A stretch of DNA of 39,976 nucleotides from Helicobacteraceae bacterium (GTDB taxonomy: Bacteria; Campylobacterota; Campylobacteria; Campylobacterales; Sulfurimonadaceae): the NCBI GenBank assembly GCA_015488775.1, contig WFNF01000002.1, positions 1 to 39,976 on the forward strand, read 5' to 3'. How positions within the stretch are numbered: position 1 is the first letter of the stretch; each line of letters begins with the position of its first letter. Below, in pieces: positions 926-16,884 of the stretch. The position numbers were made by a program, and so were the translations under genes. Below the pieces are notes generated by a model. That model was not told the DNA's origin. It saw nothing but the letters and a program-made list of their open reading frames with translations, and made no database searches.

Positions 926-3900
926 ATGAGCATAAAATCTGTACTAAAAGGGACAATACTATCTTTACCAATAGTTTTGTTATTGAGTTGTAGCAATAAT
1001 AGCGGTGATAATAATAAAAATCTAGCTAAGACTAAAATAGTAACTGGAATATTTGTAGATAGTGCTGTAGAGGGTGTAAACTATAAATGTTCATCTGGAA
1101 CTAAAGGGATAACAAATCGTAAGGGTGAGTTTAAGTGTAAAGTAAATGATACAATATCTTTTAGACTTAAAAATATACCACTAGGTGAAGTTAAGGTTGG
1201 TAAAATAATAACACCAACAACACTTTTCCCAAAAAATCCAAAAGCTGCACTAAACTTGGCACAACTTTTACAAACATTTGATACTAAGCCAAAAGAAGAT
1301 GGTATATCGCTAAAAGATGTAGAGTTGAAGAGTTTTATAGAAAACATAGGTGGAGTGAAAAATATAAATTTCTTTTCAGATGATTTTGATACAGTTGTAT
1401 CAGCATCACTACCAGCTGGAAAAAAATTAGTAGATGAAAAAGTTGCTCAAAAACATCTTAATGATACCTTTATAAGGTTAGATATAAATTCTGATGGAAC
1501 AAAAAAAGATAAAGTACCATTAGATGATAATAATACATCAAACACCGAAAACAATACAACAATTCCTGATGATAACAATACATCAAATACTGAAAATAAT
1601 ACAACCCTTCCAGGTGACACAACTCCACCAACATTTATAAGCTCAAATGTGTTTATAGTAGCTGAAAATCAAACATCAGTTGGTATAGTAAAAATAGATG
1701 ATATTAATGCAACACTTATTTTAGGTGGAGTTGATATGTCGGCATTTAATTTGGCAAGTGATGGTACCTTGACATTTAAAGTAGCACCAGATTATGAAAC
1801 AAAATTATCATATTCTATAACAGTAACTGCAAAAGATGTAGAAAATAATGAGAGGGCGCAAAATATTACTATTAAAATTGCAAATATTGATGAAGAAGCA
1901 CCAAACTTTTTAAGCGATAGTGAATTTTCTGTGCAAGAGAATAGTACATATGTTGGTGAAATACTTATAGATGATAACAGTGGATCGATAAATTTAATAG
2001 GTTTAAATAGAGAAAAATTTAGATTGAATAGTAATAAGTTATATTTTATTAGCTCACCAGATTATGAAACACAAAATAGTTATACTTTAACTATAGAAGC
2101 AAAAGATAGAGTTAATAATCGTAGAACACAAAATATTACAATCAATATAATAGATGTTGCAGATGAAACAGCACCAATATTTGCAAGTGGTGATAGTATA
2201 GTGGTTGATGTAAATGAATCTAATAAGAGAGTAACAAGGTTGATAGTTGATGATACTCAAGCACAACTTACACTAAGTGGGTCTGATAATAGTGCTTTTA
2301 CAATCGAAGGGGATGTACTGTTTTTTAAAGAAACGCCTATATATTCTGTGCAATCTATTTATTATGTTACAGTTACAGCGGTAGATAACTTTGGTAATAG
2401 TGCAAACCAATCTATTCGTGTGAATGTATTAGAAGCTAAGGTTGCAGATACAACTCCACCAATTTTTACTAGTGCAAATAGTATAGAGTTTAATGAAAAT
2501 GCAACAGGAGTAGTACTTCGTATAACTACAGATGAAAAAACTACACTCACTTTAAGTGGAACAGATAAAGATGCATTTACATTAAGCAGTGGAGGGGATT
2601 TAAGTTTTGTTAATCCTGCAGATTATGAAACACAAAATACCTACTATATCAGTGTAACCGCATCTGATGAGTCAAATAATACAGCAGTCCAAGATATAAC
2701 TGTTAACATTGTAGATCTCTATGAGATATCAAACGAAGAGTATTTTTTATATAGAGCAGAAGATAGTAGATATGGGGTTGAACGCTGGGTAGCACCACTA
2801 GATGGAAACAGTACAACTGTTTTAAAAGATATTAATACTATTACAAAACGATCAAGTGTTTCTAATGTAATATCATACAACAATAGTACCTATTTTTATG
2901 CTAATGGAGAGATTTGGAAAACAGATGGAACGACTACAGGAACTATTAAGGTTGTGACATTACCTAGGCTTAGTGTATATGCAAGTAATATACAGTATCT
3001 TATACCAAGTGGAAATAAATTTTTCTTTTTATATAAAGATGGAAGCGCTTCTAGTCGTGAGCAGTTATGGGTGAGTAATGGAACACAAGATGGTACTTTT
3101 GTTATTACAGATACTTCTGCAAATATTAGTGAAGTAACAGCATGGAACAACGGAGTGCTCTTTACAATATCCGATGATAGAAGTCACTTATGGTTTAGTG
3201 ATGGAACAGTTGAGGGGACATACTCTACAAATGATTCTGGCGATAATACAGCTTTTGAAGATGTTTATTATTATAACTATCATAATAGTGGACCGCATCT
3301 TATGAAAACAGATGGAACAACAAGTGGTACATCGACAATCGACATTCCGTCTGCTTATAGAAGTTATCTTAAAAGAGTAGGAGATAAAGTTTATCAAATG
3401 GAGCAGGACTCTTCTTATGATGCAACATTCTATTTAATAGATGAAACATTAGATGAAAATAGAGCATTAGTGGATATAAACGAGACTTTAAGGAAGGCTA
3501 ATTTTTATAGTTCTTTGGGTAAGTTGTTTATTACTGGATATAACTATTTATATGTTGTATCAGGAAGTGAGTGGACAAAATTGACAGACAGTACAACTCC
3601 TGTACGAGAACATGTAGATTACAATGGAAAACAGTATTTTGTAAGTAAAAGTGAGCTCTGGGAAACACAAGGAACAGTGCAAACAACACAAAAACTTCTA
3701 GATATTAATGCAACTACTATTGAAAACTTAGTAGTTGAAAATGGAAAACTATATTTTAGTGCATATAACAGTGATATTTCAGGAAATACCAAACAGTTAT
3801 GGGAGAGTGATTTTACTCAAGATGGTACCAAAATAGTACGCTATATTCCTGCTGAAAGGCTATCAAATTATAGTGATACTAAACTTTACAATCTTAATAA

Positions 3901-5041
3901 TCATATTTATTGTAGTGGATATGATACTAAACATTCATATGAATTATGGATAAGTGAAAGTGATCAAAATGGTGAAATTATAGGTATGGAAATTCTTAAG
4001 GATATTAATATAAATACACAAGACAGTACCAGAGTATTTAGCTCAAGCCAAGATTTAGACTCTAAAAAGATAGGTAATGTATCATACTTCCTTGCTTCTG
4101 GTGGTTCTGGACTAAATTCAATGTATAAAACAGATGGTAGTTATGCAAATACACAACAAATATTTTTAGATTTAAACAAATCTATTAATGCATTTACATA
4201 TCATAATGGCTCGTTTTATTTAGGTTTAGATGATAGTATATATGTAAGCTCCACTGAAAATAATGCACAGTTGTTAAGAGAGAAAACTGATGCTGAGTAT
4301 ATGGGTCCTGTTAGAAATTTTAGGGGTTCATGTAAAGATATTGTATTTTTTACCACAGTTAACGATTTGTGGAGAACAGATGGAACATTTGATGGTACAT
4401 ACAAATTGAGTGGAGTTAGAGAAACCTCGAATATAGTACAAACTACAGATGAACATTGTTATTTTGAATATTCAGGTAAACTTATGCAAAGCGATGGATC
4501 AGATTCTAATACAACTGAGGTTCAAGGTGCGAGCATAGTTGTGGTAAATAATGATATTGATATAGCTGATATAAATAACAGTATATATTATAAAAGTAGT
4601 AACAACGAGATTCACAAATATAATACTAGCTCAGGTGATAGTGTATTTCATACATTTGATGATATTATTAGCTATCTTACAGATGTAGGTGAAAGTTTTT
4701 ATGTAATTACTGTAGAGAATACAAATGAAAGAGCTTCAAAAATGTTTAGTATTAACGAGGATGGCGTAACACAAATACTTTCATCGACATCAAATATGCG
4801 TGTTCCACAGTTTACAAATGTTGATGGCATTGTTTATTTTACAAAAGATATGAATATATATAAAACAGAGGGAACAAGTGCTACAACAATAATGGTTGTT
4901 GAAAATACTACAGATCCAAAAGTATCTATAAGATTTTTAGGAGTGGAAGGGTCTAAGCTATTTTATAGATATGGCTCAAATTCCCCACAAGTGTATTATA
5001 TAGATAATAGTGGAAAAAATAAGGAGTATGAAGTAAAATAG
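926..5041 (+). CDS. Large lipoprotein with cadherin-like repeats and ELWxxDGT repeats
   Basis: A 1371-aa predicted lipoprotein. The signal peptide ends in a lipobox LLSC with Cys22, and an AAGGAG ribosome site precedes the ATG. After a 200-residue N-terminal domain comes a low-complexity Asn/Thr linker (about residues 200-230). Four cadherin-like repeats of about 90 residues follow, starting near residues 231, 324, 413 and 508; each opens with a (T/A)PP-F or AP-F step and carries the YET(Q/K) and VTA-D strands typical of the fold. The last 770 residues hold at least ten ELWxxDGT-type units, for example EIWKTDGTTTGT, HLWFSDGTVEGT and DLWRTDGTFDGT, a pattern usually read as a beta-propeller-like surface domain. 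It is probably surface-exposed and involved in adhesion or carbohydrate binding, but that role is inference. It seems monocistronic. Confidence 0.88.
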   Translation: MSIKSVLKGTILSLPIVLLLSCSNNSGDNNKNLAKTKIVTGIFVDSAVEGVNYKCSSGTKGITNRKGEFKCKVNDTISFRLKNIPLGEVKVGKIITPTTLFPKNPKAALNLAQLLQTFDTKPKEDGISLKDVELKSFIENIGGVKNINFFSDDFDTVVSASLPAGKKLVDEKVAQKHLNDTFIRLDINSDGTKKDKVPLDDNNTSNTENNTTIPDDNNTSNTENNTTLPGDTTPPTFISSNVFIVAENQTSVGIVKIDDINATLILGGVDMSAFNLASDGTLTFKVAPDYETKLSYSITVTAKDVENNERAQNITIKIANIDEEAPNFLSDSEFSVQENSTYVGEILIDDNSGSINLIGLNREKFRLNSNKLYFISSPDYETQNSYTLTIEAKDRVNNRRTQNITINIIDVADETAPIFASGDSIVVDVNESNKRVTRLIVDDTQAQLTLSGSDNSAFTIEGDVLFFKETPIYSVQSIYYVTVTAVDNFGNSANQSIRVNVLEAKVADTTPPIFTSANSIEFNENATGVVLRITTDEKTTLTLSGTDKDAFTLSSGGDLSFVNPADYETQNTYYISVTASDESNNTAVQDITVNIVDLYEISNEEYFLYRAEDSRYGVERWVAPLDGNSTTVLKDINTITKRSSVSNVISYNNSTYFYANGEIWKTDGTTTGTIKVVTLPRLSVYASNIQYLIPSGNKFFFLYKDGSASSREQLWVSNGTQDGTFVITDTSANISEVTAWNNGVLFTISDDRSHLWFSDGTVEGTYSTNDSGDNTAFEDVYYYNYHNSGPHLMKTDGTTSGTSTIDIPSAYRSYLKRVGDKVYQMEQDSSYDATFYLIDETLDENRALVDINETLRKANFYSSLGKLFITGYNYLYVVSGSEWTKLTDSTTPVREHVDYNGKQYFVSKSELWETQGTVQTTQKLLDINATTIENLVVENGKLYFSAYNSDISGNTKQLWESDFTQDGTKIVRYIPAERLSNYSDTKLYNLNNHIYCSGYDTKHSYELWISESDQNGEIIGMEILKDININTQDSTRVFSSSQDLDSKKIGNVSYFLASGGSGLNSMYKTDGSYANTQQIFLDLNKSINAFTYHNGSFYLGLDDSIYVSSTENNAQLLREKTDAEYMGPVRNFRGSCKDIVFFTTVNDLWRTDGTFDGTYKLSGVRETSNIVQTTDEHCYFEYSGKLMQSDGSDSNTTEVQGASIVVVNNDIDIADINNSIYYKSSNNEIHKYNTSSGDSVFHTFDDIISYLTDVGESFYVITVENTNERASKMFSINEDGVTQILSSTSNMRVPQFTNVDGIVYFTKDMNIYKTEGTSATTIMVVENTTDPKVSIRFLGVEGSKLFYRYGSNSPQVYYIDNSGKNKEYEVK
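1523..1612 (+). repeat. Two-copy 45-bp tandem repeat in a lipoprotein linker
   Basis: Two head-to-tail copies with a 45-bp period begin at 1523 and 1568. Each encodes 15 residues of the form DDNNTSNTENNTT(I/L)P. Copies differ at several third positions, so the duplication is not brand new. It forms the flexible linker before the cadherin-like repeats, and copy number could vary between strains without changing the frame. Confidence 0.85.
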
Positions 5042-5085
5042 TAAAATCAATTAAATACATAATAAAATATTATAATTCTTGTTTT

Positions 5086-5127
5086 TTAGATTAATTGTTA
5101 CATTTATACACAAAATAATTAATCTAA
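5086..5127. other. Inverted repeat downstream of the lipoprotein gene
   Basis: Arms TTAGATTAATT (5086-5096) and AATTAATCTAA (5117-5127) are perfectly complementary over 11 bases with a 20-base loop. The left arm is preceded by a run of T. It could act as a weak terminator for the 926-5041 gene or as a regulatory site for the next gene; its AT-only stem makes the function uncertain. Confidence 0.4.
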
Positions 5128-5206
5128 ACTTAAATATAAGTTAATTTAGTTAGTAATTCAATTTTTTGATGTTACATTGTTTCATCTTAAAAGATAAAGG
5201 ATATAA

Positions 5207-5806
5207 ATGAAAAAATTAATTATGAGTTCAGTTGTTGCAGCAACAGTTCTAAGTGGAGTTGCGTCAGCAGATGTGAAAGTTGGTCTTGGTGTTGATGTTT
5301 TAACAAATATAGATAACCCTATTGCAAGTTTTACTAAAACACCAATTGCTGGTAAAATTGGATCAACTCCTGTTGTTAGAGTGCCTATAGTTTTTGATGC
5401 TTTTAGAGTTGAACCACGTCTTGCTTATGCTTCAACTTCAAATGATAATGGGCCTGGTATAAATAAAGAGGGCTCTCTTTTCGCTGCTGGTTTAGGTGCT
5501 TACTATACTTTTGCTGATTGGGGTGATACGGGTATGTACGCTGGTGGTAATGTAGATTACTATGGTGTCGGTGGACCAGATGGTAAGGGTGGAACAACTT
5601 CTTATATTACAGCATTAGTTATGGCTGGAACTATCGGTGTTGAATACTTTATAGTAAAAGATCATTTTTCAGTAGCAAGTGAACTAGGTTTTTCTTATAC
5701 TGCGACTACTTTTCCAAAAGGGACAGGAGCTAATCCAAGTACAAGTGATGTAAAAGGTTCAGATATTAACCCGGTAACTTCATTAACAATGAGATACTAC
5801 TTCTAG
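5207..5806 (+). CDS. Small outer-membrane beta-barrel protein
   Basis: A 199-aa protein with a clear Sec signal peptide; cleavage is probably after ASA near residue 21. The mature part alternates hydrophobic and polar residues in short strands, is rich in Gly and aromatic residues, and ends in the barrel-insertion signal LTMRYYF with a terminal Phe. That fits an eight-strand outer-membrane barrel of the OmpA/OmpW or generic beta-barrel type. The start is supported by an AAAGG site seven bases upstream of the ATG. A 13-bp hairpin follows the stop, so it is probably transcribed alone. The substrate or role cannot be told from sequence. Confidence 0.8.
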   Translation: MKKLIMSSVVAATVLSGVASADVKVGLGVDVLTNIDNPIASFTKTPIAGKIGSTPVVRVPIVFDAFRVEPRLAYASTSNDNGPGINKEGSLFAAGLGAYYTFADWGDTGMYAGGNVDYYGVGGPDGKGGTTSYITALVMAGTIGVEYFIVKDHFSVASELGFSYTATTFPKGTGANPSTSDVKGSDINPVTSLTMRYYF

Positions 5807-6049: not shown

Positions 6050-6067
6050 TAATTTTAAAGGATGAAT

Positions 6068-7027
6068 ATGATTAAAAAACTTCTTGCAGGTGTTCTTGCA
6101 CTTTCACTTAGCACTAGTGCATTGTTGGCAGCAGATGGTGTTGTTTTTAATGTTGTTAAAGGTGATAAAGAGAAAGCTTACTACAATATGGTTAATAATA
6201 AGATGGAAGAGATAGGTTTTGTACTTTCTGATCCACATGAGCGTATTAATGATGGTTATAAAGAGAAGTATGGAGAAACTAACTTAGATAATTTAGGTTT
6301 TATGTCAGTTACCGCAGATAAAGCTTTAAGAACTATGCTTATCACCAACCCTGAATTAGCTGGATTTTCACCTTTCAATATTCATTCTTATAAATTAACT
6401 GCTGAAGACAATACTTATGTTGGTCATTTAGCTCCTTCAACTATGCTTGATATAGTTGGAGTAAAAACCCCATCTGTACGTGCAGAATTTACTAAAATGT
6501 TTGAGCCACTAGATAAAATGATTGATCAAGAAATCGGTGGTAAGAAACAGATAATTACTTATGATAAACTTCCAGCAGACACTATGATGCATTTTGAGAT
6601 AGAACTTAAAATTCAAGATGGTGATATAGCAACGGCTATAGAAGATTTTCAAGATGGTTTTGAAGAAGCATTTGAAGATAAAAAGTACATCATTGCAGGT
6701 TATAAAGACTTTAAAGAGGCATATGAAGATTTAGATCTTCCTTTTAAAGAGTATGATGCATTTTTTGTTTACTCACTTTGTCACTTTAAATTTTCAGATA
6801 GCATCTTTAACCACAAAGGTGGAATCCCAGCAGCAGGTGCATTTGCTCCGTGCTCAATGTACATGTATGTAAAGGCTGGAACTAATATACTTGTAATTGG
6901 TATGCCTAAACTTGCAAATTGGGCTTCTGTTATGGATATAAAAGATAATAAAAAAGTTGATTATATACACGCTATAGATAGTGAAATTATTGGTATAATG
7001 AAAAATTTAGGAGCAGTGCTTAAATAA
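6068..7027 (+). CDS. Exported DUF302-like protein
   Basis: Secreted protein of 319 aa. I take the ATG at 6068 rather than 6062 because AAAGG (6057-6061) abuts the first but is six bases from the second. A Sec signal peptide ends near LLAADG. Two halves each look DUF302-like: an N-terminal one with ALRTMLITNPELAGFSPF, and a C-terminal one (about residues 225-285) with AFAPCSMYMYVKAG followed by VIGMPKLANW. The same AFAPC and GxPxxxNW blocks recur in the lipoprotein at 11930-12907, so the two are paralogues. The stop overlaps the next start by one base (TAATG), which implies translational coupling. DUF302 function is poorly defined; a periplasmic binding or stress role is possible. Confidence 0.8.
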   Translation: MIKKLLAGVLALSLSTSALLAADGVVFNVVKGDKEKAYYNMVNNKMEEIGFVLSDPHERINDGYKEKYGETNLDNLGFMSVTADKALRTMLITNPELAGFSPFNIHSYKLTAEDNTYVGHLAPSTMLDIVGVKTPSVRAEFTKMFEPLDKMIDQEIGGKKQIITYDKLPADTMMHFEIELKIQDGDIATAIEDFQDGFEEAFEDKKYIIAGYKDFKEAYEDLDLPFKEYDAFFVYSLCHFKFSDSIFNHKGGIPAAGAFAPCSMYMYVKAGTNILVIGMPKLANWASVMDIKDNKKVDYIHAIDSEIIGIMKNLGAVLK

Positions 7028-7872
7028 TGAAAAAATTAATAACTTTAGCAATTATTACTTTTATTATCTCCTTTTCTGGATGTTCATCTTCTGCTCCAAT
7101 TGAGGCAGTAGCTAGTCCTATGCCAACAGGTAGCGTTCCAACATACTATGTTGGTGCATACCAAGATGTTGATTCAGTAAAATCAGCACTTGTAGGGGCT
7201 GGTTTTGAAGTATTAGCTGAGTATAAAGTTAAAAAAATAGGTACTACTATTGTATTTACAAATAATAGTTTAAAAGCTATGGCAGATAATCCAAAAAGAG
7301 GGTTTGCCGCTATATTAAGAGTTTTAGTAGATGATGCAAATAAACAGATATCTTTTACCAACCCTATTTACTATGGGAAAGCATTTATGCAAGATGAATA
7401 CAACAATGAAGTTTCTTCTGCTGCATTAACTGCTATACAAGGTGCATTTGATGGTTTAAAAGCAAGTGAAAATGATAAATGGGAGTTCGCTGAACTTTCT
7501 GGTTACCACTTTATGGTAAGTATGCCTTATTATGAGGATTTTGTAGAACTTGGTGAGGGAACTGACTTAGTTTCAAAAGCCGATTCTTACAAAAAAGGTA
7601 AGTTAGAAGTATTTAAACTTGAATTATCCAAAAATCGTACTATTTTAGGTTATAAACTTGGTAAAAGAACAGCTAAATTTGTTAAAAAAATTGGCACAAA
7701 AAATGCGAGTATTTTACCATGGTTAGTACTTATAGAAGATGGAAAAGCTTATGCACTTAATGCAAAGTATTATATAGCTATATCTTATCCTAAACTTAGT
7801 ATGGGTGAATTTATGACTATTGCTACTGTGCCTGGTGCGGTAGCAAAAGACTTATCCAAACCTTTTAAATAA
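7027..7872 (+). CDS. DUF302-like lipoprotein
   Basis: A 281-aa lipoprotein with lipobox FSGC (Cys19). It has a DUF302-like core at about residues 40-125, with FTNNSLKAMADNPKRGFAA and then FTNPIYYGKAF, and a C-terminal block of the form EDGKAYALNAKYYIAISYPK. Both blocks are matched closely in the next gene (7982): TNPVYFGKAYLQ and DRGKAYTMNPKYYIPVHIPK. The pair therefore arose by duplication, with one copy lipidated and one free in the periplasm. It overlaps the preceding gene by one base and is probably co-translated with it. The exact biochemical function is unknown. Confidence 0.8.
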   Translation: MKKLITLAIITFIISFSGCSSSAPIEAVASPMPTGSVPTYYVGAYQDVDSVKSALVGAGFEVLAEYKVKKIGTTIVFTNNSLKAMADNPKRGFAAILRVLVDDANKQISFTNPIYYGKAFMQDEYNNEVSSAALTAIQGAFDGLKASENDKWEFAELSGYHFMVSMPYYEDFVELGEGTDLVSKADSYKKGKLEVFKLELSKNRTILGYKLGKRTAKFVKKIGTKNASILPWLVLIEDGKAYALNAKYYIAISYPKLSMGEFMTIATVPGAVAKDLSKPFK

Positions 7873-7876
7873 AATA

Positions 7877-7894
7877 TTTGAGTTTCGGCTCAGG
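7877..7894 (+). terminator. Weak intrinsic terminator
   Basis: TTTGAG (7877-7882) pairs with CTCAGG (7889-7894), including two G-U pairs, and is followed by TGTTTTTCT. It sits just after the stop at 7872 and separates the 6068-7872 pair from the 7982-11880 operon. The stem is short, so read-through is likely. Confidence 0.5.
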
Positions 7895-7950
7895 TGTTTT
7901 TCTAAAATTATTACTTTTTGTTTTTTACACCTATCTTAAACACTATATGT

Positions 7951-7956
7951 TACAAT
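7951..7956 (+). promoter_or_regulatory. Candidate promoter for the caspase operon
   Basis: TACAAT at 7951-7956 would start a transcript near 7963 with an AAGGG ribosome site at 7972. A better hexamer, TATAAT at 7963-7968, lies too close to that ribosome site to leave a normal leader. Either could be used. Confidence 0.35.
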
Positions 7957-7981
7957 ACGCTTTATAATCATAAGGGCAATA

Positions 7982-8947
7982 ATGAAAATTTTATTAACAA
8001 TATTTTTATTTATTACAACTCTTTTTTCTGCTGAAAAAGTTGTTTGGGATAATGATATAAAACTTGACGATAGACGCGCTGAACAAATATATAAAGCATA
8101 TATAGATAGAACTCAAAGTGATGATGTTAAAAATTGGATTAAATACGAAATTCAAACTGAGAAAGAACTTATAACTAAGGTTACTTCTAACTCTATACTA
8201 GATGGTGAAGTTAGTGCATACTTTGTATCAAAAATTGTTTCATTGGACGAAATAAAAAGAAGACTTGAAAAAGAAAACTTCAAAGTTGTATCTACTATGA
8301 ATATTGATACAAATACAAAAAGTGTTATATTTACTTCTAAGCAGATGATTGAGATGTCAAACTTACCTGGACGTGGATTTGCTTCCTATGGGACAGTGAC
8401 CATATATAAAAATAAGGGTGTATCTTTAATTACTAATCCTGTGTATTTTGGTAAAGCTTATCTTCAGCAGTATGCTAAGATGTCAATACTCAGTGAGATG
8501 CAAAATAGACTTATTGTTGTATTTAATGTTTATAAATACTCACCTCAACGCTACCCTCTTGATGACCTGAGCTCATATAGATATAAAAGTAGATATCCAG
8601 AATATAAAAATTTAACCTTACTTATAAAAAGTTCTACAAGTAAATTATTGAGTAATTTTAGAAAAAATACAAGAGAATCAGATAGAAGTATAATTAAACT
8701 TAGTGATGACAGATATCTATTGCTATACAATTTTTCAACTGAACTAAATTATACTTTAAAACGTATAGGTAGTGTATATGCACTTTTGATGCCTATACCA
8801 ATTATGATAGATAGAGGTAAGGCATACACAATGAACCCTAAATACTACATACCTGTACATATCCCTAAGATTGATATTGACGAGCTAAAACAGATTGCAT
8901 CAATACCTAAACAGATAAAATTTAAAGCAAAATCACTTTTTTACTAG
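7982..8947 (+). CDS. Exported DUF302-like protein, paralogue of the 7027 gene
   Basis: A 321-aa protein with a Sec signal peptide ending near LFSAEK and no lipobox. The core aligns by eye with the preceding lipoprotein: IFTSKQMIEMSNLPGRGFAS, then TNPVYFGKAYLQ, then GKAYTMNPKYYIPVHIPK near the C-terminus. It carries an extra 65 residues at the N-terminus and a more basic central section. It opens the operon that continues with the caspase-like gene nine bases downstream, so it is the family member most tightly linked to that protease. It could be a partner, an inhibitor or a substrate; that is inference. An AAGGG ribosome site supports the start. Confidence 0.78.
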   Translation: MKILLTIFLFITTLFSAEKVVWDNDIKLDDRRAEQIYKAYIDRTQSDDVKNWIKYEIQTEKELITKVTSNSILDGEVSAYFVSKIVSLDEIKRRLEKENFKVVSTMNIDTNTKSVIFTSKQMIEMSNLPGRGFASYGTVTIYKNKGVSLITNPVYFGKAYLQQYAKMSILSEMQNRLIVVFNVYKYSPQRYPLDDLSSYRYKSRYPEYKNLTLLIKSSTSKLLSNFRKNTRESDRSIIKLSDDRYLLLYNFSTELNYTLKRIGSVYALLMPIPIMIDRGKAYTMNPKYYIPVHIPKIDIDELKQIASIPKQIKFKAKSLFY

Positions 8948-8956
8948 GAGAATGAG

Positions 8957-10480
8957 ATGAAAAAACTACTACTATTGGTTCTACTACCTATAATGCTATT
9001 TGGAGTTCCATTAAATCCATATAAAAATATTAGCGATGAAAAAAAACTTTCTGCATTAACTGAATATTATTTTGATAAGATAGCAATCTATCCAACTGCC
9101 CCAAAATTAACAAAGGGGGAGTTCGAAAAAACTTCTGTTTTTAACAAAAGAGTTGAGAAAGAAAAATATAAATATAAACAATTGGTTGATAAGTACAAGT
9201 CTTCAACACAAAAATATAAGGCTTTGGCAATGGCAAAAGCTTTTGGTGCTCTTTATGGAAAACCTGAACTTGGAAAACTAAAATATGATGCTGATACAGA
9301 ACATTTTTATACAAAAATATATACTAAAAATGGTAAGTTTGAAAAAAATATTGCCATAAAGGTTCCAATCTCTAATGCAAAAAAGTTCAAAAAAAATTAC
9401 TCAAAATTATCACCTAAGGTTGTTTATGAGTTCAATGGAAATGACTTAGTTTTAAAAAACATTAGCGTAAAGTATAAAAACAAAGAGTATAAAGGTCTTG
9501 TAACAAATGACAGTTACAAAGATAGTTCTATGGTTGTTGCTCTTAATTCACTTGGAGAAGCATCTTTAGTTATGGGTGAAGTTAGTGTTGGTGTTGATGA
9601 AGAGTTACTTAAACTACAAGAGGAAAATTTAAAACTACTTAGAAGAAAAGCCCTACAAGGTGAAAAAAATCGTTTAGCGAAATCTAACTCTAAATTGGGT
9701 GTATATAAAAATGATGATATACATAGAAAGCTTAATGGTGTTTCTCAAGCAAAAGTTGATCCTAAAAAATGGTTATTTATTATATCTATAGAAAATTATG
9801 AATTTGCTGACAATATTATATATAATAAAAATACTGCTAAAAATTTTAGAGATGTTGCTAAAAAGACACTTGGTATAGAAGATTCGCATATTGCTTTTAT
9901 GAGTGAGGACGGTGCAACTGCTGGAGCGATTAAAGGTAAACTTAGAACTAAGCTCAGGCGTGTTGAAAAGGGTGATACTGTTTACTTTTACTACAGTGGA
10001 CATGGAATACCAGTAGCTTCAAAGGACAATGAACCATATATGTTACCAGCAGATACTATGGTAGATTATGTTGAGGATGAAGAATTTTTTAAATTGAAAA
10101 ATATATATGCTCTTTTAACTGATTCTAAAGCATCAAAAGTTGTTGCAATTATTGATGCTTGTTTCTCTGGTGCTACAGACAATAAAGCTGTTATAAAGGG
10201 TGTCGCTGCAGCCAGGCTTAAGCCTAAAGGTATAAAAATTGATGAAGATAAAATGTTTGTTATAACTGCTGGTAAAGATAAGCAATATTCAAATAAATTT
10301 GATGACAAAAGTAATAGACTTTTTTCATATTATGTTATGGACGCATTAATGGATGGAAAAAGAGATAGTATGTCTATGTATAGATATGTATATAAAAATG
10401 TTAAAGATGAGTCTTATAAGATGGGGGATCTCAATCTACAGGAACCAACTTTAATGGGTAATAAGGATATGTCATTTTGA
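8957..10480 (+). CDS. Exported caspase-like (peptidase C14) protein
   Basis: A 507-aa predicted envelope protease. A Sec signal peptide (about residues 1-17) is followed by a lysine-rich N-terminal domain of about 200 residues with an FNKRVEKEKY segment, then a short coiled stretch (about 213-240). The caspase-like domain spans about 272-505. The catalytic dyad is visible: His349 in YYSGHG and Cys402 in IDACFSG, each after a hydrophobic strand as the fold requires. Cleavage would be after Lys/Arg if metacaspase-like, or another P1 if not; sequence does not settle this. It lies nine bases after the DUF302-like gene and overlaps the DUF4384 gene, so it is a central operon member. Export is unusual for this fold. 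Targets are unknown. Confidence 0.87.
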   Translation: MKKLLLLVLLPIMLFGVPLNPYKNISDEKKLSALTEYYFDKIAIYPTAPKLTKGEFEKTSVFNKRVEKEKYKYKQLVDKYKSSTQKYKALAMAKAFGALYGKPELGKLKYDADTEHFYTKIYTKNGKFEKNIAIKVPISNAKKFKKNYSKLSPKVVYEFNGNDLVLKNISVKYKNKEYKGLVTNDSYKDSSMVVALNSLGEASLVMGEVSVGVDEELLKLQEENLKLLRRKALQGEKNRLAKSNSKLGVYKNDDIHRKLNGVSQAKVDPKKWLFIISIENYEFADNIIYNKNTAKNFRDVAKKTLGIEDSHIAFMSEDGATAGAIKGKLRTKLRRVEKGDTVYFYYSGHGIPVASKDNEPYMLPADTMVDYVEDEEFFKLKNIYALLTDSKASKVVAIIDACFSGATDNKAVIKGVAAARLKPKGIKIDEDKMFVITAGKDKQYSNKFDDKSNRLFSYYVMDALMDGKRDSMSMYRYVYKNVKDESYKMGDLNLQEPTLMGNKDMSF

Positions 10481-11457
10481 AAATTCTACTATTTTTGATT
10501 TTTACTATTGCTATTATATATGCAGAGGTTCCAACTTGGTATGCGAGTGGTTCATTAACTACCAATAAACCATCAGAAGTTATTGGTACGGCTGAGGCTA
10601 AGACATGTTCTGAGGCCAAAGCTATTGCACTTGATGATATAGCATCACAGTTGAAAAGTGAGGTCTCTTCTACTCTTAGCTCTAATGTTAAAAGTAACAA
10701 TACCAGAGATGTATCTTATAGCGTTAAAGCAAGTTCTCATGCTATACTTTATGGTGTCGAAACACTTAGAAAAGAGGAAAATGATGGTAGGTGCTTTTTA
10801 GCTTTACAATATGACAATATTTCAGTTGTACAGCGACTTGCAAGAAGATATAAAAACAAAAAATGTGAAGCTAAAATACTAGACCCATATCTCAATAAAA
10901 CAAGACTTAGTGATAGAATAGAAAAAAGAGTTGGTTGTAGACTTGGTTTTGATATAGTAAGAGAAGATGGAGTTTGGCAACTTGTTTATGATGATTTTAG
11001 AATACCTATATCTAAAGATGAATTTGAGGATCTTTTTGTTTCTGTAAAATCAAAATATATAAACTTTGAAAGTTCAAAAAATACACTTTATGATGGTGAC
11101 GAGTTTAATTTTACTTTAAGTGCGAAAAGTGATGGATATATAACACTTCTTAGTGTTTATGAAAATGGTATAGTTACTTTGTTTATGCCATCTATGAAGA
11201 TTAAGAAAGGTAAAACTATCCATTTTCCAAGTGAAGATTCTGATCAGATGTTAGAAGCAGGACTTGTAACTAAGGGTGTTGATACTTATGATCTTTATGT
11301 AGCAATATTTTCAAAAGAACCAATTAATACTAGTAGATTTGAGTATGCATCTAGTGAACTTGAAGAGAGCGAAAGTGCATACAAATTTGATGAGTTAAAA
11401 GAGTTAATAAATAAACATAATTTTTCAAGTATATATATAAGGACAAAAGCTAAATAA
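10477..11457 (+). CDS. Exported LPP20-like/DUF4384 protein, caspase partner
   Basis: A 326-aa protein. The start is TTG at 10477, inside the caspase stop region (TTGA overlap), with an AAGGAT site eight bases upstream; no ATG fits. A signal peptide ends near IYAEVP. Residues about 17-130 resemble LPP20-type domains (VPTWYASGSLTTN, then an Ala/Ser-rich helix). Residues about 195-300 carry a DUF4384-like beta domain with YDGDEFNFTLSAKSDGYITL and VTLFMPS. DUF4384 is a frequent companion of caspase-like domains in bacteria (from memory of family architectures), here on a separate polypeptide. A scaffold or regulatory role for the protease is inferred. Domain boundaries are approximate. Confidence 0.8.
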   Translation: MKILLFLIFTIAIIYAEVPTWYASGSLTTNKPSEVIGTAEAKTCSEAKAIALDDIASQLKSEVSSTLSSNVKSNNTRDVSYSVKASSHAILYGVETLRKEENDGRCFLALQYDNISVVQRLARRYKNKKCEAKILDPYLNKTRLSDRIEKRVGCRLGFDIVREDGVWQLVYDDFRIPISKDEFEDLFVSVKSKYINFESSKNTLYDGDEFNFTLSAKSDGYITLLSVYENGIVTLFMPSMKIKKGKTIHFPSEDSDQMLEAGLVTKGVDTYDLYVAIFSKEPINTSRFEYASSELEESESAYKFDELKELINKHNFSSIYIRTKAK

Positions 11458-11466
11458 GGAGTTTTT

Positions 11467-11880
11467 ATGTCTATTAGAAAAGATGATATAACACAGCAAT
11501 GGTATTTTGATATAGAAGATTATATTATTAGTGAAACAGATGGCTCTGGCATTATTACCTATGCGAATCAGGGGTTTTGTGAGATTGCTGGCTATAACAT
11601 TGATGAACTGCTTGGACAACCTCATAATATTGTAAGACATCCAGATATGCCTAAAATTGCTTTTAAAGGCCTATGGGATGACGTGAAAAACAAGGGATTC
11701 TGGACTGGATATGTAAAAAATACTAGGAAAGATGGAGGATTTTATTGGGTCTATGCTACAGTAATGCGTAAAATAGATTCTAGTGGTAAATCAAGTTATT
11801 TATCTGTTAGGGTTCCCGTCCTAAGAAATGTTACTGAGCAATATAAAGAAATTTATGCAAAATTAAGAGATAAAGAGTAA
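11467..11880 (+). CDS. Single PAS-domain protein, Aer-like
   Basis: A 137-aa cytosolic protein that is essentially one PAS domain, with an Aer-type signature NIVRHPDMP and GFWTGYVKNTRKDGGFYWV. In Aer this region binds FAD and reports redox state; whether flavin binds here is inferred. There is no output domain, so it must act through a partner. GGAG lies upstream of the ATG, nine bases after the DUF4384 stop, making it the last gene of the caspase operon. That link suggests redox input to the envelope module, or simple co-transcription. Confidence 0.82.
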   Translation: MSIRKDDITQQWYFDIEDYIISETDGSGIITYANQGFCEIAGYNIDELLGQPHNIVRHPDMPKIAFKGLWDDVKNKGFWTGYVKNTRKDGGFYWVYATVMRKIDSSGKSSYLSVRVPVLRNVTEQYKEIYAKLRDKE

Positions 11881-11888
11881 ATGTTTTC

Positions 11889-11915
11889 CTCGTTCACACT
11901 ATATGTGAGAACGAG
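11889..11915. terminator. Hairpin between convergent genes
   Basis: CTCGTTC (11889-11895) pairs with GAACGAG (11909-11915) with further partial pairing inside. It sits between the convergent stops at 11880 and 11930. Neither side has a clear U-tract, so it may be a bidirectional pause or 3'-end stabiliser instead of a classic terminator. Confidence 0.45.
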
Positions 11916-11929
11916 TATAGCTAAAGCTT

Positions 11930-12907
11930 TTATTCAATAATAGAGTTAACTGTCTTCTTAAATAAGTTTTGTGCTTTTATAAGAGGTTTAATTGAATAAT
12001 CATCTTCCATGTCAGTTGACAAAATCCAATTCTGCACAGATGGAAAGCCCATGTGTACAATTTTTTCATTTTTCTTTTTATAGAAGTAGAAAGTACATGG
12101 AGCAAAGGCACCAACTTCTGGGTGTACTTTAGAGACTGGATGTATAACTTCTAGTTTACATACAGAGTATGTATTATAAAAATCAAATGTATCTACTCCA
12201 CGATCTATAATCTCATCATTTACACCAATATAACCTGGAAATAAGAAACCTAGAGGTTCCATCTCACCTTCAAATTCATCTTGGAATGCGTCTATGTCAT
12301 CTTCACAGTCACCACCAGCACACTCAAACTCAGTTTCAAAAGTTGTTTCTAAAGATCTATTTAAATCAGCAACTTTTTTGTAGTTTAAAGTTTGAAATTT
12401 TCCATTTGGTAGAGCAAGTTTTAAAGCTTTTTCGACTTTATCAGCAAAAGCTACTAATACAGGGTTAGTCATAGGAATTTGTGTCATTCTTGACATACCT
12501 CTTAATGATGGTGATGATATACTCATTGTAGTACCATTTTTATCAGAATAGATTGACATAGAAAGTGGAGTAATTAGACCAACACTTGGATATTGCTCTA
12601 CAAGTTTAGCAACCATATCTGGATCATGAAATGTAAACAGATGGTATGTTTTGTACCAAGTTGAGCCAAAACGCTTAGAAAATGGCTTATTCATATTGTT
12701 GTTACCATCAATAGAAAAACCACTTGTTTCAAATGCTTTTTCTATTGTAGTTGGAGTAATTTTACCATCTACATTTGAAGTTTTGAAGATACTAATATCT
12801 TGTTGTGGTTTTTCTGCTACTTTTGCTTTAGCTTCAACTTTTGGAGAAGCTGAATTGCAAGAGATAAATGTTAATGCAATAAATGCACTTAGTATTACTT
12901 TAATCAT
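11930..12907 (-). CDS. DUF302-like lipoprotein
   Basis: A 325-aa lipoprotein with lipobox FISC (Cys17). It is the paralogue of the exported protein at 6068: both have a C-terminal AFAPC block (AFAPCTFYFYKKK here), then a GxPxxxNW block (MGFPSVQNWILS here), and a matching acidic stretch before them. The N-terminal half also has a DUF302-like segment, DPDMVAKLVEQYPSVGLITP. It converges on the caspase operon but is transcribed separately: a TATAAT on the minus strand at 12935-12940 and an AAGGA ribosome site give a leader of about 21 bases. An acidic CAGGDCEDD segment near residue 200 contains two cysteines and could bind metal. Confidence 0.78.
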   Translation of the reverse strand: MIKVILSAFIALTFISCNSASPKVEAKAKVAEKPQQDISIFKTSNVDGKITPTTIEKAFETSGFSIDGNNNMNKPFSKRFGSTWYKTYHLFTFHDPDMVAKLVEQYPSVGLITPLSMSIYSDKNGTTMSISSPSLRGMSRMTQIPMTNPVLVAFADKVEKALKLALPNGKFQTLNYKKVADLNRSLETTFETEFECAGGDCEDDIDAFQDEFEGEMEPLGFLFPGYIGVNDEIIDRGVDTFDFYNTYSVCKLEVIHPVSKVHPEVGAFAPCTFYFYKKKNEKIVHMGFPSVQNWILSTDMEDDYSIKPLIKAQNLFKKTVNSIIE

Positions 12908-13002: not shown

Positions 13003-13461
13003 TTATGTTGATACAAGATTATTTAATATATAAACTTCATCATCTAACTTAATTGTACCACTAACATCAACTTTAGAAAATATACCCCTATCCTCTTTAA
13101 GAAGTTTTGGAAGCTTTGCATCTACTTGAGATAAACCTTTACATAAAGTACAGTTTTGTGAAATTTCTAAAATTGTTGTGCCAATTTGTAGTTTTTGTCC
13201 TGGAAGCATAGAGTACGGATTATAATCTATTAGTATATTTTCACCTAAAAGTCCATAATCTATATTTATATCGTTTTGTAAGGCTAAATCATAGCTATCT
13301 TTTGTAGCAATTAAAACTGATCTTTTGATGTTTTTATTGTAAAACTTATTGTCTAATATACCTTGGGCATCTAGTGTAATGGATGTTTTTGGTACTCTAT
13401 TAGGATTATCTTTACGAGATATAAATAGTGCTAATACAGTTCCAACTTTAGTTTTTGACAT
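13003..13461 (-). CDS. MOSC-domain protein downstream of sox genes
   Basis: About 152 aa from the ATG at 13461. A longer frame reaches a TTG at 13524, but that extension crosses a perfect hairpin after soxZ and adds nothing domain-like, so I prefer 13461. The C-terminal half shows the MOSC (molybdenum cofactor sulfurase C-terminal) pattern: NCTLCKGL with a candidate cofactor cysteine, then LKEDRGIFSKV and LDDEV. MOSC proteins carry activated sulfur to molybdenum cofactor. Its place after soxC-soxD-soxY-soxZ suggests maturation or repair of the SoxC molybdenum site, which is inference. Confidence 0.72.
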   Translation of the reverse strand: MSKTKVGTVLALFISRKDNPNRVPKTSITLDAQGILDNKFYNKNIKRSVLIATKDSYDLALQNDINIDYGLLGENILIDYNPYSMLPGQKLQIGTTILEISQNCTLCKGLSQVDAKLPKLLKEDRGIFSKVDVSGTIKLDDEVYILNNLVST

Positions 13462-13498
13462 ATAAAAATCTTTTTTGATTATTTTTGATAGAGGGATG

Positions 13499-13521
13499 TT
13501 TAAAGAGTTAAACTCTTTAAA
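13499..13521. other. Perfect hairpin between soxZ and the MOSC gene
   Basis: Arms TTTAAAGAGTT (13499-13509) and AACTCTTTAAA (13511-13521) are perfectly complementary around a single A. On the minus strand it lies 11 bases after the soxZ stop. No U-tract follows in the sox direction, so I read it as a processing or stabilising hairpin and not a full terminator. Confidence 0.6.
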
Positions 13522-13531
13522 CAAAGTAAAA

Positions 13532-13840
13532 TTACTTAAGTTTTACAGTTTTTTCTTTAGTTGCACCTGAACGGTCAACCCAATTCATAGTAAGTTTATC
13601 ACCTTTTTTAAATTTATCGCCTTTAGCTTGAAATTTTAAAATAGGGTTTTTAGATAAAAATTGAGAAGTTGATGCATCATATATAACTGCATCACCGATT
13701 TTTGCTGTTACATGCATAACAAAGTTAGACTTTTCTCTATCACCAAATTTTTTCTTAGCTTGATCATAAGTAATCATATCGTGTTTTATAAGTGCTTTAA
13801 CTTTAATAACATCTTTTTTTAATTTTGCTTTTACTTTCAT
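13532..13840 (-). CDS. soxZ: SoxZ, thiosulfate carrier subunit
   Basis: A 102-aa protein with the full SoxZ immunoglobulin-like sheet pattern: KALIKHDM near the start, FVMHVTAKIGDAVIYDASTS in the middle, and KGDKLTMNWVDRSG near the end. SoxZ pairs with SoxY, whose C-terminal cysteine carries the sulfur substrate in the periplasm. There is no signal peptide, as expected, since SoxZ is exported with Tat-targeted SoxY. It follows soxY by 42 bases in the same operon. Confidence 0.95.
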   Translation of the reverse strand: MKVKAKLKKDVIKVKALIKHDMITYDQAKKKFGDREKSNFVMHVTAKIGDAVIYDASTSQFLSKNPILKFQAKGDKFKKGDKLTMNWVDRSGATKEKTVKLK

Positions 13841-13882
13841 AAATGTTCCTTTGTATTTTCTATTTATAATGAAGTAAAGGGA

Positions 13883-14335
13883 TTAACCTTCACAACCACC
13901 AAGTGCAACGTCTAGTGTTTTCTTACCAACGTATAATTTTCCATCTTTACCTTCAACAACACAAGAGATAGTACCACTTGCTTTCATTTTGATTTTGATG
14001 TCGTAGTTGATGATTGAATACTCATTGATATCAAATACAATTACAGCAGCTTCAGGGTTAGCATCTTGAAAGATTGCTACACTTTTAGCATCTATATTAG
14101 ATTTTACATTAATTGGAACAGCTCCACCATTTGCAGCAACATCTGGTGCGGTAACTGTAACACCTTTTTCAATAGTTGCAGTTGAACCATATAAAGCTTT
14201 AATAGCGTCATCAACAGTTTTAGCAGTCCAAGCTGTTGGCTTTAATTTTCTATAATCTTCTGCACGAACACTTACTGGAACTGCAGCTAATGCTAAAGCA
14301 CCAAGAGTCATACTTAAAAATTTTCTTCTTTCCAT
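13883..14335 (-). CDS. soxY: SoxY, covalent sulfur-substrate carrier
   Basis: A 150-aa protein with a twin-arginine signal peptide (MERRKFLSMT; cleavage near VRAED) and a SoxY sheet domain. The C-terminus is ALGGCEG with Cys148, the residue to which thiosulfate is attached as a thioester-like S-sulfonate. The family consensus tail is GGCGG; here the fourth residue is Glu. This is a real departure seen in the sequence, in a stretch that docks in SoxAX, SoxB and SoxCD active sites. The ribosome site AAAAGG supports the start. Two hairpins lie between it and soxD. Confidence 0.94.
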   Translation of the reverse strand: MERRKFLSMTLGALALAAVPVSVRAEDYRKLKPTAWTAKTVDDAIKALYGSTATIEKGVTVTAPDVAANGGAVPINVKSNIDAKSVAIFQDANPEAAVIVFDINEYSIINYDIKIKMKASGTISCVVEGKDGKLYVGKKTLDVALGGCEG

Positions 14336-14363
14336 GTTTTTTCCTTTTAGAGTTTAAAATTTA

Positions 14364-14385
14364 TACTAACACACTAATGTTAGTA
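14364..14385. other. Hairpin in the soxD-soxY intercistronic region
   Basis: TACTAAC (14364-14370) pairs perfectly with GTTAGTA (14379-14385) around an 8-base loop. It is 29 bases upstream of the soxY start in the minus-strand transcript. It may stabilise the soxYZ message after processing. Confidence 0.5.
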
Positions 14386-14392
14386 ATTTGTT

Positions 14393-14411
14393 AAGGGGAT
14401 ATTATCCCCTT
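14393..14411 (+). terminator. GC-rich hairpin in the soxD-soxY gap
   Basis: AAGGGGAT (14393-14400) pairs with ATCCCCTT (14404-14411) around ATT and is followed on the plus strand by TTTTAT. That orientation is antisense to sox, so it would stop plus-strand transcription. Within the sox message the same stem has no U-tract and would be a processing or stability element. Confidence 0.55.
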
Positions 14412-14429
14412 TTTATGTTTAAGCTTTTA

Positions 14430-15605
14430 TTATTTGCTTGAGTTAACCATGTAGTTAATAACATCTTTAATTTTTGCATCAGATAAATCAGTCCCACCTT
14501 TTGGAGGCATACCATTTTTACCATTGATAGCATTATGATAAACTGTTTCCATACCTTGAGATGTTACTTTTGCCCATGCTTCTTTGTTTCCAAATGCAGG
14601 TGCACCCATTGAACTATCAGCGTGACATACTGCACACGAAGCTTGGTAGTCTTTCTCACCAGGAGTTGGAGCACCCTTTTCAACAGGCATATCTCTAGTA
14701 ACATTCATAGGCGGTAAGAAATCAGATATACCAACACCTTGAATACGTTTTACAGTTGCATTCGCTTCTTGACAATTAGTCGTACATCTTACAGCACCTT
14801 TATTAAGATTCTGTCCGCCAAAGTTCTTAGGATTAGCGTAGTATGCACGAACTACATCAGTTGCACCTTTACCATCTATTTTTGGTTCAAAACCATCAAC
14901 ATTAGGCATCACTATTTTAGAGAATTTTTCTTGATCAAGTACATACTCATCATCAACCTCTTCACCATCAATTTTAATCTCATTAATACTAATAATGTAA
15001 GCAGTTAAAGCATAAACTTGATCTATACTTAAACTTTTTGTTTTAGGATGTGGCATACCATCATGAATGTACCACCAAAGTGTACTTGCTTGTGGCCAGT
15101 ATGAACCAAATTCACGAGTTGGACCATCAGCATCTGGGATGTTTCTTTGGTTGGTAAGTGTTTTTTGTAAATCGTAAGCATTACCTTTAGATAGTGATGG
15201 GTAACCACCACCACCTGAACCAAAGTCACCATGACACATTACACATTTTGCTTCATATATCTCTTCACCATCTTCAACAGAACCTTGACCTTTTGGAGGT
15301 AGTTTCCATGGTGTTACATCTGTATTCCAAGCTTCAAGCTCATTAGCAGTTGGTGTACGACCATAGTTAAAACCGCTTGATGGTATTTTAGTATTTACAG
15401 CATATTGTGAAGTCTTTCCATTAACAGTAGGATAAGTTACACCACCATCAATTACAGCTTTACCATTTGCGTAAACACTTTGTTTTGCACTAGAACTCAT
15501 GTGTCCTTGTGCATCTGCAGATGCATCACCATTACATCCTATTGCCAATAATGAAGCAGCACTTATTGATAGTGCTACTAAAAATTTACGATCTAATTTG
15601 AACAT
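14430..15605 (-). CDS. soxD: SoxD, di-heme cytochrome c of sulfane dehydrogenase
   Basis: A 391-aa c-type cytochrome, partner of SoxC. Two heme sites are visible: CVMCH (Cys121, Cys124, His125) and CAVCH (Cys324, Cys327, His328), with likely Met ligands in HDGMPHP (Met184) and NGKNGMPPK (Met366). The N-terminus has a lipobox-like LLAIGC (Cys24), so it may be membrane anchored; cleavage near ADAQ is the alternative. It accepts electrons from SoxC during oxidation of SoxY-bound sulfane sulfur. Its start lies inside soxC (20-base overlap), with AAAGG eight bases upstream, so the two are translationally coupled. A Cys pair at RCTTNC (residues 274-279) between the domains is not a heme site. Confidence 0.93.
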   Translation of the reverse strand: MFKLDRKFLVALSISAASLLAIGCNGDASADAQGHMSSSAKQSVYANGKAVIDGGVTYPTVNGKTSQYAVNTKIPSSGFNYGRTPTANELEAWNTDVTPWKLPPKGQGSVEDGEEIYEAKCVMCHGDFGSGGGGYPSLSKGNAYDLQKTLTNQRNIPDADGPTREFGSYWPQASTLWWYIHDGMPHPKTKSLSIDQVYALTAYIISINEIKIDGEEVDDEYVLDQEKFSKIVMPNVDGFEPKIDGKGATDVVRAYYANPKNFGGQNLNKGAVRCTTNCQEANATVKRIQGVGISDFLPPMNVTRDMPVEKGAPTPGEKDYQASCAVCHADSSMGAPAFGNKEAWAKVTSQGMETVYHNAINGKNGMPPKGGTDLSDAKIKDVINYMVNSSK

Positions 15606-16884
15606 GATTCACCTTTCCATCAGTTGTTACTTCCCAAGTCTCTACCGCATTTCTGTGGTAAACAGATTCAACACCCATTACAGATGTTTCTTGATCAATT
15701 GTTGGTTGAATGTAGCCAGCATCATCTATAGCACGACTTGTAAGTAAAAGTTTTTTACCTTCGTACTTGTAGATGTAGCTCCATCTTGTCCAACATTTTG
15801 GTAGAACTAGACCTTTTAATTCTGCTTCAACATAGTTTTTACCACCATCAAATGACAAATCAACAGCATTAATTGTTCCCATCCCAGACCATGCAAGTCC
15901 TTCTATCTCAATTAAATCACCAACTTTTACATCTTTCCAAGGTTTCTCTGGAGATGGAGAAGTTACAGTTGAGTTTACTTCATTTGCATAAAAGTGTTGT
16001 ATAGCTTTACCTGTTGGTTTTAAAGCAGTATATTTAGAAGTTTCCTCTTTACAATAGTAAGGTTCAGTTGAAAACTTAAGGCGTTTAAGCCATTTTACAC
16101 AAAGATTACCTTCCCAACCTGGAACAAGTAAACGAACAGGGTAACCTTGTTCAGGACGAAGTGCTTCACCATTTTGTCCCCAAACTAGCATTGCATCATC
16201 AAGAACTTTATCAACAGGAACAGTTCTACCCATCTCTGAGTTATCTGAACCCTCTGCTAACATCCATTGAGCTTCTGGCTTAAGACCTAAATCTTTAAGA
16301 ATATCTTTGATGTAAACACCAGTCCATTCAGCACAACTCATAAAACCTTTTGCAAATTGTAAAGAGTTAAATTGTGGGCCTCTCCACTCTTGTCCACCAT
16401 TAGCAGGACACTCAATAAAGTGAGTACGAGTAACGCTAGGGTATTTTTTAAGTTGATCAAGAGTTAAAACAATCTCTTTTTCTACTAAACCATGAATCAT
16501 TAGTCTAAACTCATTAGGATCAACTATAGCAGTTCCACCATGACTTCTTGAGAAAAATAAACCATTTGGTACAATAATTCCAGAAAGCTCATGTATAGGA
16601 GCAACTGCGATTGATGCTTGAAAGTTACCAGAAGCTAGTAGTTTCGTGTTTCTTCTTAAAACATTATGCTCAAAAGGAGATGGCATGCCGTAACGGTTAT
16701 GTGTTACTGGAAAACCTAATTTTTGCCCCCAAGGCACATGGTGCATAATTGCAGGATCATCAGCTAATGCTTCTTTTGAAAGCAAAACTGTTGATGCCGC
16801 AACTGCGCTTACAGAAGCAGCTCTTTTAAAGAACTCTCTTCTACTAACAGACGTGTTGTCTTGTGTATTCAGACTTTTGTTCAC
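15586..16884 (-). CDS. soxC: SoxC, molybdenum sulfane dehydrogenase subunit
   Basis: A 432-aa member of the sulfite oxidase family. The start is GTG at 16884 with GGGAG five bases upstream. A twin-arginine signal (SRREFF, residues 14-19) leads to the periplasm. The molybdenum-pterin domain follows, with the ligand cysteine in HFIECPANGGQEWRG (Cys159), and the C-terminal dimerisation domain contains WSGMGTINAVDLSFDGG and LTSRAIDDAGYIQP. With SoxD it removes six electrons from SoxY-bound sulfur, so that thiosulfate is oxidised fully to sulfate. It needs molybdenum cofactor, for which moaD, moaE and moeA lie at 35561-37413. Confidence 0.95.
   Translation of the reverse strand: MNKSLNTQDNTSVSRREFFKRAASVSAVAASTVLLSKEALADDPAIMHHVPWGQKLGFPVTHNRYGMPSPFEHNVLRRNTKLLASGNFQASIAVAPIHELSGIIVPNGLFFSRSHGGTAIVDPNEFRLMIHGLVEKEIVLTLDQLKKYPSVTRTHFIECPANGGQEWRGPQFNSLQFAKGFMSCAEWTGVYIKDILKDLGLKPEAQWMLAEGSDNSEMGRTVPVDKVLDDAMLVWGQNGEALRPEQGYPVRLLVPGWEGNLCVKWLKRLKFSTEPYYCKEETSKYTALKPTGKAIQHFYANEVNSTVTSPSPEKPWKDVKVGDLIEIEGLAWSGMGTINAVDLSFDGGKNYVEAELKGLVLPKCWTRWSYIYKYEGKKLLLTSRAIDDAGYIQPTIDQETSVMGVESVYHRNAVETWEVTTDGKVNHVQIRS

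Follow-up and report, generated by a model that had tools for sequence, protein, structure and literature searches.

We analysed a window of 39,976 nucleotides from a sulfur-oxidising Helicobacteraceae bacterium (GCA_015488775.1, contig WFNF01000002.1, positions 1 to 39,976 of the forward strand), in which a caspase gene (8957..10480, plus strand) is directly followed by a gene for an LPP20-DUF4384 protein (10477..11457, plus strand). The caspase, an orthocaspase of the Peptidase_C14 family, has 507 amino acids and a dyad formed by H349 and C402, and its export is predicted; the gene of its 326-amino-acid neighbour has a TTG start and overlaps the caspase stop by 4 bases. A preliminary description of this DNA had proposed an operon of the open reading frames 7982-8947, 8957-10480, 10477-11457 and 11467-11880, with spacings of 9 bases, a 4-base overlap and 9 bases, in which an exported caspase would work with DUF302-like, LPP20/DUF4384 and PAS partners. 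These reading frames and spacings were confirmed. With a probability of roughly 0.55, however, we favour a composite locus, in which the real unit would be a cassette of exported orthocaspase and LPP20-DUF4384 protein, lying beside unrelated sox-linked genes and acting by the mechanism proposed below. Genes are referred to here by their first coordinate.

Residues 271-486 of the caspase match Peptidase_C14 (E 4.8e-15; 56.3 bits against a curated cut-off of 21.4). H349 lies in the C14 motif YSGHG and C402 in DACFSG, and both are invariant in an 11-member alignment, in agreement with the intact dyad described previously; in pseudo-orthocaspases this dyad is lost. Within the clade to which the protein belongs, the His was found in 58/58 members and the Cys in 57/58, and judging from these motifs the window caspase is most likely a catalytically active orthocaspase. 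It scored 65 bits with the NCBIfam model NF047832 (caspase, EACC1-associated type), below the cut-off of 140. The AlphaFold2 model, built on 32 sequences, one of them a weak caspase match that was wrongly included (L150:4056-6731), had a mean predicted local distance difference test score of 79, most of the C14 part exceeding 90. The predicted architecture comprises a signal-peptide-like start (1-20), a helical/beta N-terminal domain (about 59-182), a low-confidence linker (about 187-250) and the C14 domain (about 262-507), for which the closest folds in the PDB are those of MALT1, metacaspases and GSU0716. A periplasmic-binding match (3i09) of profile A4 was rejected, as it is probably due to the same wrongly included row and not to the caspases.

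MALT1 holds the P1 arginine through Asp365 on helix alpha-1, and its Asp462, just before the catalytic Cys, also lines the S1 pocket; Asp95 and Asp211 of TbMCA2 are the counterparts of this pair, and both residues are reported to be highly conserved, even among prokaryotic pseudo-orthocaspases (PMC4357240, PMC6426788). The yeast NDA motif and the MALT1 Asp, aligned with HMMER, served as anchors for the corresponding column, which falls in helix 290-305 of our model. At the first S1 Asp position, every clade member covering the column (57/57) has Ser or Thr, whereas Asp is found in 24 of 27 outgroup caspases, the three exceptions branching with the exported clade. MALT1 and the metacaspases, which are the best fold matches, retain this alpha-1 Asp, which aids binding of a basic P1 residue. 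Two S1 Asp residues mark the meta- and paracaspases with basic P1 specificity; the window caspase has T293 at the first position and D400 at the second. Campylobacterota caspases outside the clade retain the first Asp, some of them despite signal-peptide-like starts, so that the swap to Ser/Thr looks neither like a lineage effect nor like a compartment effect. Furthermore, Arg454 is invariant in the clade, the outgroups having mostly Gly. From these positions we infer that the P1 preference of the clade may be altered. The sole clade member without the catalytic Cys (L157:3697-5388, with DSGFS) is otherwise alike, and is possibly a decaying or pseudo-enzyme copy. Exported-looking pseudo-caspases with Ser in place of the Cys, an alpha-1 Thr and a retained Arg454 were also seen in three genomes of one genus (L073:3578-6203, L074:7420-9995 and L075:7077-8387), in tandem in two of the three and followed by outer-membrane-barrel-like and cadherin-like proteins.

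Most discussion of bacterial caspases presents them as enzymes of the cytoplasm that act in death or defence and cleave after basic residues. The cytoplasmic part of this picture, which the preliminary description had shared, is too simple, since a 2012 survey reported transmembrane helices in 104 of 671 metacaspases, 46 of the sequences having just one helix, at the N-terminus and possibly a signal peptide (PMC3501461). Exported caspases are therefore already known in themselves. By a simple hydropathy rule, the predicted signal peptide of the window caspase was recovered, and 46 of the 52 complete caspases of the clade have a signal-peptide-like start, against 181 of 448 other genes in the same loci (Fisher p 1e-11). 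A lipobox is also present in 18 clade caspases with such a start, and some of the 6 caspases that lack one look like wrong start calls. The LPP20-DUF4384 protein of the window, too, has a signal-peptide-like start, and the same rule gave such starts for 31/35 of the LPP20-DUF4384 partners. One long clade member (L128) has an Lcl_C domain, and other members show the same motif.

The preliminary description was also right in assigning a separate LPP20/DUF4384 protein to 10477-11457: its product passes the Pfam DUF4384 model (27.6 bits, cut-off 27) and matches LPP20 weakly, under the cut-off (23.9 bits against 25.9). The profile of the partner family matches the LPP20-family protein HP1454 of H. 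pylori (PDB 4kzs) through the N-terminal domain (E 1.3e-16), this LPP20-type domain being common to both, whereas the later domains of HP1454 are unmatched by the profile. Interactions of H. pylori HP1454 with FlgP and FapH are reported from two-hybrid and pull-down assays; it has been studied with these flagellar accessory proteins and without a caspase (PMC11756786), while the partner described here adjoins one. The structure model of the partner is confident (86.6), with DUF4384 at about 204-259 and the C-terminal part predicted to be an Ig-like beta-sandwich, and Foldseek returned beta-sandwich matches only, all weak. DUF4384 is found inside cyanobacterial orthocaspases (PMC7475262), which supports a physical link between caspase and partner; the link of caspase and DUF4384 is common to both systems, although here DUF4384 lies in a separate, exported-looking LPP20 protein. 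We found no assigned function for DUF4384 in the literature searched.

When GTDB genomes were scanned with the caspase alignment, 79 loci were obtained, and among the same-strand neighbours of the clade caspases LPP20-DUF4384 proteins were by far the commonest family (36 loci, some of them entered from two collections), followed by Lcl-type proteins, judged by motif (10 loci). An LPP20-DUF4384 gene lies within two genes of the caspase in 24 of the 42 cases with enough flank on both sides. In the reverse search, which covered 399 genomes of the order, window included, 12/15 full-length LPP20-DUF4384 genes adjoin a caspase. Gene order within the cassette is variable, the partner standing before or after the caspase, and overlaps of 1-4 bases are recurrent. 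The pair of caspase and LPP20/DUF4384 genes thus recurs across genomes, whereas the full run that the preliminary description had singled out (6068-11880) was seen in no other sampled genome.

The cassette was found in Campylobacterota, Vibrio, Photobacterium, Shewanella and Deferribacteraceae, and on the 82-kb plasmid pSULFM1 of Sulfurimonas aquatica, where the genes are annotated as 'caspase family protein' and 'LPP20 family lipoprotein'; single genes of the cassette have thus already been named by automatic annotation. Families and phyla are intermixed in the caspase tree, which fits horizontal spread of the cassette. The Vibrio, Photobacterium and Shewanella cassettes have an extra gene of about 220 amino acids and unrecognised type in between, and at five gammaproteobacterial loci (L106:9435-12783, L104, L109, L120 and L131) the cassette continues with one gene family, a MltC-like lytic transglycosylase in L106, and an LPP20 gene. 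Another contig of the window's genome encodes a further caspase of the clade, and no second partner gene was found in the genome. A phage origin was considered and rejected, as no phage record matches. A search of open-licence papers gave no description of a caspase with LPP20 or DUF4384, nor of an orthocaspase lipoprotein operon. Compared with prokaryotic caspase homologues in general (orthocaspases or metacaspase-like proteins, MEROPS C14), the clade shares the C14 sequence and fold, the H/C dyad and the Asp ahead of the active-site SC/AC, and some of those homologues have accessory domains or an N-terminal hydrophobic helix; it differs in having export, as predicted, as the rule, Ser/Thr in place of the alpha-1 S1 Asp, an Arg454 that never varies at a position mostly occupied by Gly in the outgroup, and a conserved LPP20-DUF4384 partner gene.

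The genes flanking the cassette appear to have another origin. Upstream lie a gene for a DUF302-family protein, predicted to be exported (6062..7027, plus strand; its start is at 6062, the 6068 given earlier being its second Met), and its partner gene (7027..7872, plus strand, 1-base overlap), which encodes a predicted lipoprotein of an unnamed family. They are followed by 7982..8947 (plus strand), an orphan and highly diverged copy of the 7027 family that runs in the same direction as the caspase, a pairing unique to this genome. Downstream, 11467..11880 (plus strand) encodes an Aer-type PAS protein, in agreement with the PAS domain predicted earlier, which most resembles the PAS domain of the aerotaxis receptor (8dik, E 8e-28) and carries no export signal, so that it is presumably cytoplasmic. 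Beyond it, a DUF302 lipoprotein gene (11930..12907, minus strand) ends a convergent run of genes for a MOSC protein, soxZ, soxY, a c-type cytochrome (soxD-like by position) and soxC (13003-16884, minus strand); neither 11930 nor the sox genes had been included in the preliminary description. Its 'DUF302-like' label held for 6062, which matches DUF302 under the cut-off (18.9 bits against 23) and is homologous to 11930, which itself matches DUF302 strongly (E 1e-10). For 7027 and 7982 it did not hold: they have no meaningful Pfam match, 0/12 members of their family match DUF302, and hhalign against the 6062/11930 family gave a probability of 7.7%. A promoter and terminator scan gave counts no different from those in shuffled sequence.

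In relatives, a homologue of 6062 is followed by a homologue of 7027, often with overlapping ends, and then directly by the PAS gene. One genome (G033, locus L092) has 6062-7027-PAS and then, on the opposite strand, a DUF302 paralogue, 11930, MOSC, soxZ, soxY, cytochrome and soxC; another (G023, L082) has the same gene set in reversed order, and G028 (L091) and G009 (L096) retain most of it. None of these four genomes has a caspase at the sox-linked site. In the window, 7982, the caspase and the LPP20-DUF4384 gene sit exactly between 7027 and the PAS gene, an insertion unique among the sampled genomes. The simplest reading of this empty-site synteny is that a caspase cassette was inserted into an older sox-linked neighbourhood, and that 7982 probably arose when a 7027-like gene was duplicated. 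In L083, 7027-type genes stand in tandem. The branch of 7982 has a length of 3.04 against a median of 0.48, which leaves its position in the tree unsure, and a search of 228 family genomes gave no ortholog and nothing more than 33% identical. Given the caspase-free 6062-7027-PAS order in relatives, the DUF302 and PAS genes are, as far as gene order can tell, neighbours of the caspase through history. We rejected the DUF302 genes as caspase partners because of this caspase-free synteny and because they co-occur with a caspase at no sampled locus but that of the window. Among the partners proposed in the preliminary description, the LPP20/DUF4384 protein thus stands, as a pair conserved from either side, and the DUF302-like and PAS proteins do not.

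A search for flanking repeats as an insertion signature found none that was convincing. A 16-base repeat of 88% identity (7940-7955 and 11896-11911) lies in the spacers that bracket the inserted block and the PAS gene, its second copy within a hairpin 3' of the PAS gene, and is probably due to chance in AT-rich DNA. DUF302 genes also adjoin sox genes in Thermithiobacillus and other sulfur oxidisers (PMC5037610), like 6062 and 11930, although those loci have no caspase and another arrangement inside the sox cluster. The 7027-7872 gene and its relatives make up an unnamed but conserved family whose members mostly pair with a DUF302 gene, close to soxCDYZ in several genomes, possibly as a sulfur-metabolism pair. 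Just upstream, the window encodes a 1371-amino-acid lipoprotein with cadherin-like repeats and then a small barrel-like protein (926-5806); the former gene weakly resembles the cadherin-like genes that adjoin exported caspases in L066 and L073-L075.

We propose that the cassette is co-translated and has spread partly by horizontal transfer, and that in the window it was inserted, with or beside a duplicated and diverged 7027 copy, into the sox-linked DUF302/PAS locus. Both proteins would be exported, the caspase being active and either periplasmic or anchored in the outer membrane, with its C14 domain tied to the N-terminal binding domain by a flexible, probably cleavable linker. The LPP20 part of the partner may dock the caspase to an envelope structure, while the Ig-like DUF4384 part may bind or restrain it. 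An envelope signal would then release the protease, which would cleave proteins of the envelope and prefer residues other than the usual Arg/Lys at P1. Several points weigh against this proposal: D400, the second S1 Asp, is retained, so that basic P1 specificity may persist; an adjacent LPP20-DUF4384 gene is missing for 18 of the 42 clade caspases; the caspase loci were collected with two motifs, and as the catalytic Cys falls within one of them, members with an intact dyad were favoured; and the export calls come from the simple hydropathy rule.

Other explanations have to be weighed against the same data. The short distance of 9 bases between 7982 and the caspase start, together with the extreme divergence of 7982 and its lack of an ortholog in 228 family genomes, would fit a recruitment of 7982 alone, to be cleaved by the inserted caspase or to inhibit it, the other flanking genes being bystanders; however, relaxed constraint after duplication yields the same pattern and the case comes from one genome, so that we regard this as unlikely, if the least unlikely of the alternatives. 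Another reading is an envelope remodelling protease that controls peptidoglycan enzymes and has no role in stress or death: the extension of five gammaproteobacterial cassettes by one gene family (MltC-like lytic transglycosylase in L106) and an LPP20 gene speaks for it, but the former family is absent from the Campylobacterota cassettes, window included, and we consider this reading improbable as well.

If the caspase resided in the cytoplasm or inner membrane and served anti-phage defence as a suicide effector, this would agree with a weak PADLOC 'caspase' match (E 2.9e-12) and with the location of the pSULFM1 copy near Fic and HipA genes. Nevertheless, signal-peptide-like or lipobox starts are found across the clade, the partner looks exported too, and neither a recurrent defence-type neighbour gene nor a phage record match was found, which makes this explanation distinctly improbable. 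Least probable of all, in our view, is the single functional module, in which the caspase would be bound, restrained or fed by the DUF302-like proteins and would have the PAS protein as its sensor. Such a module would account for the tight co-directional spacing over 7982-11880, and the divergence of 7982 is expected if this gene gained a new role beside the caspase; but 6062-7027, PAS and 11930 form a caspase-free sox-linked locus in relatives, the flank genes are found at no other caspase locus, and 7027 and 7982 are not DUF302 proteins.

Returning to the composite locus, this window alone gives no grounds to study the DUF302 and PAS genes as caspase partners, whereas the cassette gives DUF4384 a named partner. 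We suggest tentatively, as a broader view that we hold to be plausible although on balance doubtful, that the pair may represent a protease system of the periplasm that has two components, is widespread and is not described in the literature searched; in it, exported orthocaspases of a clade whose S1 pocket was re-shaped would be controlled by an LPP20-DUF4384 envelope adaptor in regulated extracytoplasmic proteolysis. If true, an exported clade which bears the dyad, has Ser/Thr in place of the S1 Asp and possesses a dedicated envelope-type partner would constitute a distinct and testable use of the caspase fold.

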